Assembly: GCA_038852285.1 (NCBI GenBank)
Contig: JAWCKG010000018.1
Span: 1 to 39,389, forward strand
Length of the DNA: 39,389 bases
Source of the DNA: Candidatus Bathyarchaeia archaeon
GTDB lineage: Archaea > Thermoproteota > Bathyarchaeia > 40CM-2-53-6 > DTGE01
Direction: 5' to 3'
Shown: piece after piece, positions 18,902 through 34,087 of the stretch
Layout: each line of letters begins with the position of its first letter
How positions within the stretch are numbered: position 1 is the first letter of the stretch
Program-made: the position numbers and the translations under genes
The notes under the pieces: model-generated
What the model saw: the letters and a program-made list of their open reading frames with translations, nothing else
The model's database searches: none
What the model was told of the DNA's origin: nothing

Positions 18902-19000
18902 TGGTGGGCCGGCCCGGACTTGAACCGGGGACCTTCTGCGTGTCAGGCAGATATCCTAATTGTTCCACATGTTGAGGTGTCCAAACTAGACGACCGGCCC
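18902..19000 (-). tRNA. tRNA-Val(GAC) with one 21-nt BHB intron in the D-loop
   Basis: On the minus strand the 5' acceptor GGGCCGG (19000-18994) pairs fully with CCGGCCC, followed by discriminator A and an encoded CCA (18904-18902). The anticodon arm is TCTGC / CTGACAC / GCAGA, with anticodon GAC at 18944-18942. The T-arm is CCCGG / TTCAAGT / CCGGG. Removing 18960-18980 restores the D-arm GTCT-AGTTTGGTTA-GGAT and gives 75 nt before CCA. With the insert kept, the D-loop would be 31 nt. An AT-rich TATA-like stretch (TTTTATGTTTAAAG on the minus strand) lies just upstream, about 19006-19019. Confidence 0.93.
18960..18980 (-). other. Noncanonical 21-nt tRNA intron (D-loop, after G19)
   Basis: A complete bulge-helix-bulge can be drawn. 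The outer helix is CTA/TAG and the central 4-bp helix is GTTT/GAAC (one G-U). The 5' bulge is GGA and the 3' bulge AAT, and the inner helix CAC/GTG is closed by an 8-nt loop. Cutting GG^A and AA^T removes exactly the 21 nt that do not fit a tRNA D-loop, so comparative and structural evidence agree. Confidence 0.88.
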
Positions 19001-26516: not shown

Positions 26517-26970
26517 ATGTATGCCTTTAGGAGGTTTTTTGAGGCAGGGGTTGATGGGCTTTTCAAGCGTAATGAGGTTTCGCTTGAGGAGAAGGTGTTG
26601 ACGATACTCCTCTACTTGGCTGGTTTAAGCTTGAGGGGCATAAACGAGCGCTATGGCCTAATTAAGGCTAGTAAGGAAGCGGTTAGGCTTTGGGTTCATA
26701 AGATTGAATCCTTAGCCTATTATGGCTTACCAAAGCCTAGAAGGCTTATAGCCATAGACGAAACCGAGGCTAAGCTTAACGGCGAATGGCTTTAAGGCTT
26801 TTACAATAATGTCAACGCTAGAAGCCTATTAGCCGTAAATGCGATGGCTCAAATACTGGCCTATGGCTACAACCACTTAAGAGTCCATCAAAGCTTAGGC
26901 ACCACACCGTTAGATGGTAAACTTATCTTGCCAATATCAATCTGCTTTATTGAACGAACCTCTTCATGCC
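26517..26970 (+). pseudogene. IS6-like DDE transposase remnant with internal deletion
   Basis: The first fragment (26517-26795) gives 92 residues containing FLKRNEVSLEEK-like sequence (LFKRNEVSLEEKVLTILLYL), a helix-turn-helix region and RRLIAIDETEAKLNGEW, where the first catalytic Asp of an IS6/IS240-type DDE transposase is expected. It ends at a stop. Further on, AQILAYGYNHLRVHQSLGTT matches the YNxxRxHxSLG tail of such transposases. The middle, with the remaining catalytic Asp and Glu, is missing. It is an internally deleted, inactive copy. Possible degenerate ends are a TTGTTGG-containing stretch near 26472 and its rough inverse near 27105. Confidence 0.7.
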
Positions 26971-27146
26971 GAAGTTTTGAATATGATCGGACGAGGGTTG
27001 TTTGGGCGATGAACCGGACCGAAAGGGATGATAGCCGGCATCCTTTTTACAGAGTGTTGAAAAGCGAAGACCTGGCGGAGAATTCAACGCGAAGGTTAAA
27101 GAAGAGGTGAGTCAACAAGGACTCAATTGTTTAATTGCATACACCC

Positions 27147-33525: not shown

Positions 33526-33666
33526 AACCAAGCTTTCAAGGTCCAATTACCTACACTATACCGCTGACTTGATAGCCGAAATGTCGCCCATACGTTTATT
33601 CATTTAAACCTCCACTCAAGTGGTTGCTATGTACACGATATGTTGGTAGCCCGGGGGAGATTCGAA

Positions 33667-33679
33667 TTCGGGTTTATGT
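33667..33679 (-). other. tRNA-Gln intron 4 (13 nt, T-arm, between positions 53 and 54)
   Basis: The outer helix is CGA/TCG, the central helix CGGG/CCCG, the 5' bulge AGA and the 3' bulge AAT. There is no inner helix: the 5' bulge runs straight into a short CATAAA loop, a relaxed bulge-helix-loop form. Cutting AG^A and AA^T joins GGGAG to TTCGAAT and restores a perfect T-arm. At 13 nt it is close to the lower limit for such introns. Confidence 0.85.
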
Positions 33680-33694
33680 CTCCCGTCGGCGGGT

Positions 33695-33717
33695 TTCTTC
33701 TCTTTACGCATGGCGAT
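33695..33717 (-). other. tRNA-Gln intron 3 (23 nt, canonical position 37/38)
   Basis: The outer helix is the anticodon stem GCGGG/CCCGC. The central helix CTTT/GAAG has one U-G pair, the 5' bulge is GGA and the 3' bulge AAA. Inside is a small CGC-CAT-GCG hairpin. Cutting GG^A and AA^A gives the 7-nt loop CTTTGGA. The site directly 3' of G37 is the classical archaeal intron position. Confidence 0.88.
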
Positions 33718-33730
33718 CCAAAGCCCGCAA

Positions 33731-33756
33731 TTCAAGAAGCCCTTTTTTCGGGCTTT
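33731..33756 (-). other. tRNA-Gln intron 2 (26 nt, D-stem 3' strand, between positions 24 and 25)
   Basis: The central helix is CAAG/CTTG, the 5' bulge is CAA and the 3' bulge AAT. The inner helix AAGCCC/GGGCTT (6 bp) has a GAAAAAA loop. Cutting CA^A and AA^T joins AAGCA to TTGCGGG. The inner stem repeats the AGCCC of the acceptor and could compete with it before splicing. Confidence 0.88.
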
Positions 33757-33771
33757 TGCTTGTCCACTACA

Positions 33772-33792
33772 TTCGGCGGAGGCCTCGCTCCT
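33772..33792 (-). other. tRNA-Gln intron 1 (21 nt, D-stem, between positions 10 and 11)
   Basis: The central 4-bp helix is CGGT/GCCG, the 5' bulge is GGA and the 3' bulge AAT. The inner helix GGAG/CTCC has a CGAGGC loop. Cutting GG^A and AA^T removes 21 nt and joins GGTGG to TGTAG, restoring the D-stem. The outer helix is weak, so this is a bulge-helix-bulge with a reduced exon helix. Confidence 0.88.
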
Positions 33793-33849
33793 CCACCGGG
33801 CTTTAACATCCCCGGGCTGTTCGGAATAGACGTTATTCGGATTTAATAA

Positions 33850-34087
33850 ATCTTGATCCCTTATATTTGTTATATTTAGTTTGGTGGGGGTTTAATGTTC
33901 TTTAAACCAACAGTTTGTTTTTTTGAGGTAGGTGTTGAGTTGGGGTTTTTGGCCGTGGTTTTGTCTGGTTCAGATAGGGGTTTGTTGGATTTGTGGTTGG
34001 GGCGTTTTTCTCTGAGTTGTAGGAGGGTTTGAGGTCGATTGTTTTGGGTTTTCTCAGGTGGGTTCAGGCTCGGGGGAGTTTAGTTCA
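33850..34087 (+). other. G/T-rich spacer between tRNA-Gln and the integrase remnant
   Basis: The plus strand is strikingly rich in G and T and poor in C (for example GTTGAGTTGGGGTTTTTGGC). One frame is open for about 120 nt (GVELGFLAVVLSGSDRGLLD) but ends without a recognisable motif. It may be the worn 5' part of the integrated element whose integrase remnant follows. I see no RNA gene or repeat array in it. Confidence 0.35.

Follow-up and report, generated by a model that had tools for sequence, protein, structure and literature searches.

A tRNA-Gln(UUG) gene with four introns

A pre-tRNA-Gln(UUG) gene of 159 nt with an encoded CCA was found at positions 33644-33802 on the minus strand of the window, the window being the whole 39,389 nt stretch of archaeal DNA that was analysed. 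The gene was delimited by ARAGORN on its spliced form, by an orthologue and by an intron-aware parser written for the analysis, in which tRNA scoring is combined with the central helix of the bulge-helix-bulge (BHB) splice motif. All features of the locus lie on the minus strand, and the exon boundaries are those of the parser. Exon 1 (AGCCCGGTGG, 33793-33802) covers tRNA positions 1-10 and agrees with the corresponding gene of a related genome, G009. It is followed by intron 1 (21 nt, 33772-33792) at 10/11, exon 2 (TGTAGTGGACAAGCA, 33757-33771), intron 2 (26 nt, 33731-33756) at 24/25, exon 3 (TTGCGGGCTTTGG, 33718-33730), which carries the anticodon TTG, intron 3 (23 nt, 33695-33717) at the canonical 37/38 site, exon 4 (ACCCGCCGACGGGAG, 33680-33694), intron 4 (13 nt, 33667-33679) at 53/54, and exon 5 (TTCGAATCTCCCCCGGGCTACCA, 33644-33666) with the T loop, the 3' acceptor strand and the CCA. 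Each of the four intron segments occurs only once. The exons lie on a single strand, in order and within 159 nt, and the gene is thus neither a split nor a permuted tRNA gene. The spliced product is AGCCCGGTGGTGTAGTGGACAAGCATTGCGGGCTTTGGACCCGCCGACGGGAGTTCGAATCTCCCCCGGGCTACCA, 73 nt plus the encoded CCA, giving 76 nt.

The top parser solution for the locus had these same four junctions and a score of 67.0, compared to 33.9 for the best of 120 dinucleotide shuffles and 35.9 for the best of 593 window tiles, leaving aside a real tRNA-Val gene. G009, which belongs to the same order, has an uninterrupted tRNA-Gln(UUG) gene with 100% identity to the spliced product over 76 nt. Because this intact gene equals the predicted product, the junctions are supported independently of folding. 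The original prediction of four introns, two in the D-stem, one in the anticodon loop and one in the T-arm, was borne out to the base by the parser and the intact orthologue; its 73 nt product with CCA was also right, 73 nt being the length without the CCA. The other four-intron tRNA genes of this genome and the repeat of the acceptor strand in the leader, both described below, had escaped that prediction. On the comparison of sequences, the probability that the locus is a four-intron archaeal tRNA-Gln(UUG) gene was estimated at about 0.93.

ARAGORN named a tRNA-Gln(ttg) for the spliced sequence only. Neither ARAGORN nor Rfam reported the gene in the raw window, and the locus was absent from the matches when the genome was searched with a tRNA covariance model at E<=10, so the expectation that an ordinary covariance-model scan would miss it held even at this threshold. 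Another interrupted tRNA gene, a tRNA-Val(GAC) with a single 21 nt D-loop intron, lies at 18902-19000 on the minus strand of the window; it too went undetected by ARAGORN and, at its gathering threshold, by Rfam. Low-scoring parses (L004, L018, L024, L114, L115 and L122) were left out of the evidence, and the 9 nt introns that the parser placed at around 48-51 in Leu and Ser genes were discounted, these segments being the variable arms of type II tRNAs. Elsewhere in the window, at 26517-27110 on the plus strand, two neighbouring short ORFs have translations that are transposase-like in pieces.

Splice motifs and splicing endonuclease

At each of the four introns, a two-base bulge is preceded by four exon bases, and these pair with the four intron bases that stand just ahead of the terminal AA. 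The central helices are CGGU/GCCG, CAAG/CUUG, CUUU/GAAG and CGGG/CCCG for introns 1 to 4, respectively, and every intron begins with A and ends with AA. A BHB motif with a 4 bp central helix, 3 nt bulges and a predicted cut after the second bulge base was found at all four introns; for intron 1 the bulges are GG^A and AA^U. An outer helix is present for intron 3, where it is the anticodon stem, and for intron 4 (CGA/UCG). Introns 1 and 2 have no outer helix and are of the relaxed form, with an inner 6 bp helix (AAGCCC/GGGCUU) in intron 2 and a competing register for intron 1 in the best fold. The central-helix pairing agrees with the claim of a BHB or relaxed BHB at every junction. Two junctions, CA^A..GAA^T and GG^A..GAA^A, can be slid by one base with the same product; the cuts given here are the ones selected by the BHB rule.

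Two separate PF01974 genes were identified in the genome, one for a catalytic-type and one for a structural-type subunit. The alpha subunit has the Tyr/His/Lys catalytic motif, and its top PDB match was 3P1Z/3AJV, the enzyme of the Aeropyrum pernix type. The second gene encodes a beta-like paralogue in which the catalytic His is missing. Judged from sequence, the two genes fit an endonuclease of the (alpha-beta)2 type, the type with which noncanonical tRNA introns are associated (PMC4090602, PMC4033280). Each of the four introns would be cut at both ends by this two-subunit tRNA-splicing endonuclease, and the five exons would be joined by a tRNA ligase.

Gene copies, other four-intron genes and relatives

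The genome is a draft of 1.72 Mb in 42 contigs and is 98.99% complete. A search of it with the mature sequence gave two loci only, the tRNA-Gln(UUG) gene described here and one tRNA-Gln(CUG) gene. Of the tRNA genes detected in this 98.99% complete, 42-contig draft, all but a few could be decoded with confidence, and no second UUG was present among their anticodons. An intact tRNA-Gln(UUG) gene elsewhere, proposed as a check on the original prediction, was accordingly not found in the draft. A gene called Gln(ttg) by ARAGORN (L020) was rejected, as it is really a tRNA-Arg(CCU) with three introns. The tRNA-Gln(UUG) gene is probably functional and essential for the cell, and it would be the sole source of a tRNA for the glutamine codon CAA.

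At least three four-intron tRNA genes are present in the genome: Gln(UUG), Gln(CUG) with introns of 20, 17, 22 and 13 nt, and a tRNA-Lys(UUU) gene of 162 nt (L025, G000:C14:27057-27218) with introns of 20, 23, 16 and 29 nt. A relative of the Lys gene in G001 (L149) also seems to have four introns, some at different sites. The T-arm introns of Gln(UUG) (33667-33679) and Gln(CUG) (L033) share 12 of their 13 bases (ACATAAACCCGAA and ACGTAAACCCGAA). This near-identity suggests recent copying of an intron between the genes, or gene conversion; intron transposition on a large scale has been proposed for the Thermoproteales (PMC4033280).

The search of related genomes for tRNA-Gln with an intron-aware method, also suggested with the original prediction, was carried out with the parser and gave orthologues with zero, two, three or four introns. 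In G046 and G123, which belong to another family, introns of different sequence lie at the same four sites, with lengths of 28/23/16/14 nt and 28/23/15/12 nt, in that order. Three introns (at 10/11, 24/25 and in the anticodon loop) were found in G041, G054 and G015, two in G001 and none in G009 and G002. The intron state of tRNA-Gln(UUG) thus differs inside one order. As judged by these comparisons, the four-intron state is maintained in three genera and is a kept architecture and no accident. In four Gln genes of G005 and G028 (L108, L109, L135 and L136), a T-arm intron lies past mature base 58 or so, which is an unusual position.

A leader copy of the acceptor strand

In the leader of the tRNA-Gln(UUG) gene, the 5' acceptor strand is repeated perfectly, as AGCCCGG, at -16 to -10 (33812-33818). 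An archaeal TATA-like box, TTTATTAAAT, was found at 33841-33850, a position that would put the leader copy inside the transcript. The occurrence of such copies, taken as an exact complement of at least 6 nt to the gene's own 3' acceptor strand within a 40 nt leader, was surveyed in 71 tRNA genes from five genomes, with an early intron defined as one at positions 6-10. A copy was found in 15 of 17 early-intron genes and in 1 of the 54 others, in a comparison among orthologues from related genomes, which are not independent, so that p-values overstate the association. When the leaders were swapped among the 71 genes, a mean of 1.9 matches was expected, against 16 observed. Two further genomes that had not been used in forming the idea were then surveyed, with an intron at 11 also counted as early. 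The copy was present in 7/9 early-intron genes and 0/32 others, or in 9/9 and 5/32 if G-U pairs were allowed. The six early-intron Gln genes examined in further genomes of the class all had the copy, and the leader of the intact Gln(UUG) orthologue of G009 had none. The median distance to the TATA-like box was 50.5 nt for early-intron genes and 39.5 nt for the others (p=0.002); boxes about 10 nt further upstream are expected if the leader copy is transcribed.

In two Thr genes, the true 5' strand (GCCTCGG) complements the 3' strand less well than the leader sequence GCCCCGG, which indicates pairing rather than duplication as such. Exceptions to the association were also observed. The tRNA-Phe gene of G001 (L095) has a perfect leader copy and no early intron, while the tRNA-Phe gene of G046 (L182) has an early intron; the copy in L095 may have been left by an early intron that was since lost. 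An early-intron Lys gene (L181) has a leader match of only 4 nt, a Gln gene of G082 (L196) has a 6 nt copy without an early intron, and the Gln(CUG) genes of G009 and G002 have a near-copy without an early intron. The Gln(CUG) genes L122 (G046) and L121 (G123) have an upstream copy, AGCCCGG/GGCCCGG. Their putative 5' strand, AACCCGG, has a mismatch at 2-71, and an upstream GGGTT, or GGATT in the case of L121, could be its pairing partner.

Predicted role of the leader copy

The central helix of the intron 1 motif uses exon bases 5-8, and the motif therefore competes with the acceptor stem. When the tRNA-Gln(UUG) precursor was folded with its leader, the probability was 0.92 for the intron 1 helix and 0.97 for pairing between the copy and the 3' acceptor strand. 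The helix probability fell to 0.16 when the copy was shuffled and to 0.00 when the leader was left out. Over 15 genes, the mean probability of the intron 1 helix was 0.35 with the copy and 0.085 for comparison (p=9e-5), with predicted values from 0.00 to 1.00 among the genes, several of them low despite the copy. The unconstrained fold from -20 placed the leader copy on the 3' strand and formed the intron 4 motif. For intron 1, the central helix in this fold ran through the 5' bulge in the competing register, giving no clean 3 nt bulge.

The following order of events is proposed. The locus would be transcribed with the leader copy inside the transcript. According to the folding, the 3' acceptor strand would be paired with the leader copy during splicing, and this would leave the true 5' strand free for the splice motif of intron 1. 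Once intron 1 is gone, the copy would be displaced by the true 5' strand, and the leader would then be removed by RNase P. It is likely that, class-wide, introns at positions 6-11 come with such a 5' strand in the leader, and that exchange on the 3' strand enables the splice motif. The gene, its junctions, the BHB pairing, the endonuclease genes, the leader copy and the association of the copy with early introns rest on sequence comparison.

A different and rather unlikely explanation is that intron gain, or the integration of an element, left the copy behind as a scar, a duplicated tRNA end with no role in splicing. Upstream tRNA fragments arising from insertions are known, as for the tRNA-Thr of C. 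subterraneum (PMC3293823), and the Phe gene L095 retains its copy without an early intron. Against a scar, the copies stay at 6-7 nt although their spacing and flanks diverge, they track the 3' strand in sequence, with changes in Lys genes that are compatible with G-U pairs, and they raise the intron 1 motif probability in folding. Far less probable is a reading with five introns, in which the leader copy would serve as the true 5' exon and everything from there to the second copy would be an additional intron. The copy would yield identical first seven bases, and the second parse of the parser did take it, with a score of 63.7. This parse was rejected, because T8 is lost and the score is below the 67.0 of the four-intron solution; moreover, the two copies are not spanned by any consistent BHB, and the Thr genes of G046 and G032 have a copy unlike the true 5' strand. 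Finally, the locus could be the decaying remnant of an old tRNA-Gln, filled with inserted junk, with another gene supplying the tRNA. Such a pseudogene would fit the low scores of the locus in standard scans but is highly improbable given mutation-free exons with 100% identity to an intact orthologue, insertions that all obey the BHB rule, a search of the draft genome with no other Gln(UUG) and a four-site architecture kept in three genera. A functional four-intron gene with a probably exchangeable acceptor strand in its leader is the preferred reading.

If this reading is true, a built-in strand exchange would open intron positions that are otherwise unspliceable. The leader copy offers a testable answer for an intron that adjoins the acceptor stem when motif and stem share bases, and it may help to explain which tRNA intron positions become colonised.

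Comparison with known systems

In the accessible parts of the published sources, the maximum is three introns per tRNA gene (PMC8450103, PMC4390854, PMC4033280, PMC3218864, PMC3293823); the maximum of three given in the original prediction agrees with PMC8450103, PMC4033280, PMC3218864 and PMC3293823. The tRNA-Gln(UUG) gene lies outside this range. Literature searches, which covered mainly papers outside subscription journals, gave no relevant report of four-intron tRNA genes, and an earlier report may exist. Relative to the literature covered, four introns in one tRNA gene is a new record, and the known number per gene is raised from three to four. Annotation pipelines built for two or three introns will overlook genes of this kind and report tRNAs as absent in error. 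The leader copy of the acceptor strand looks new as well: it is unmentioned in the accessible parts of the literature on multi-intron genes of the Thermoproteales, although an earlier report of it may likewise exist.

The closest likeness is to the multi-intron tRNA genes of the Thermoproteales, e.g. Pyrobaculum calidifontis tRNA-Glu(UUC) and P. islandicum tRNA-Pro(UGG). In both systems, short introns of the BHB or relaxed-BHB kind lie at canonical as well as noncanonical sites of a single tRNA gene, the endonuclease is of the (alpha-beta)2 type, and many tRNA genes are interrupted. The Thermoproteales genes have up to three introns, whereas Gln(UUG) has four. Introns in the D, anticodon and T arms are also found in the tRNA-Ile(UAU) of Cyanidioschyzon merolae, which differs in being a eukaryotic gene with three introns (PMC9602550). 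In the split tRNAs of Nanoarchaeum equitans, Caldivirga and others, pairing outside the tRNA likewise shapes the BHB for the same enzyme, and a structural role of leaders would be common to both. The halves of split tRNAs are separate transcripts that pair beside the splice site, whereas in tRNA-Gln(UUG) there is one transcript, and the predicted partner of the leader is the 3' acceptor strand, distant from the splice sites.
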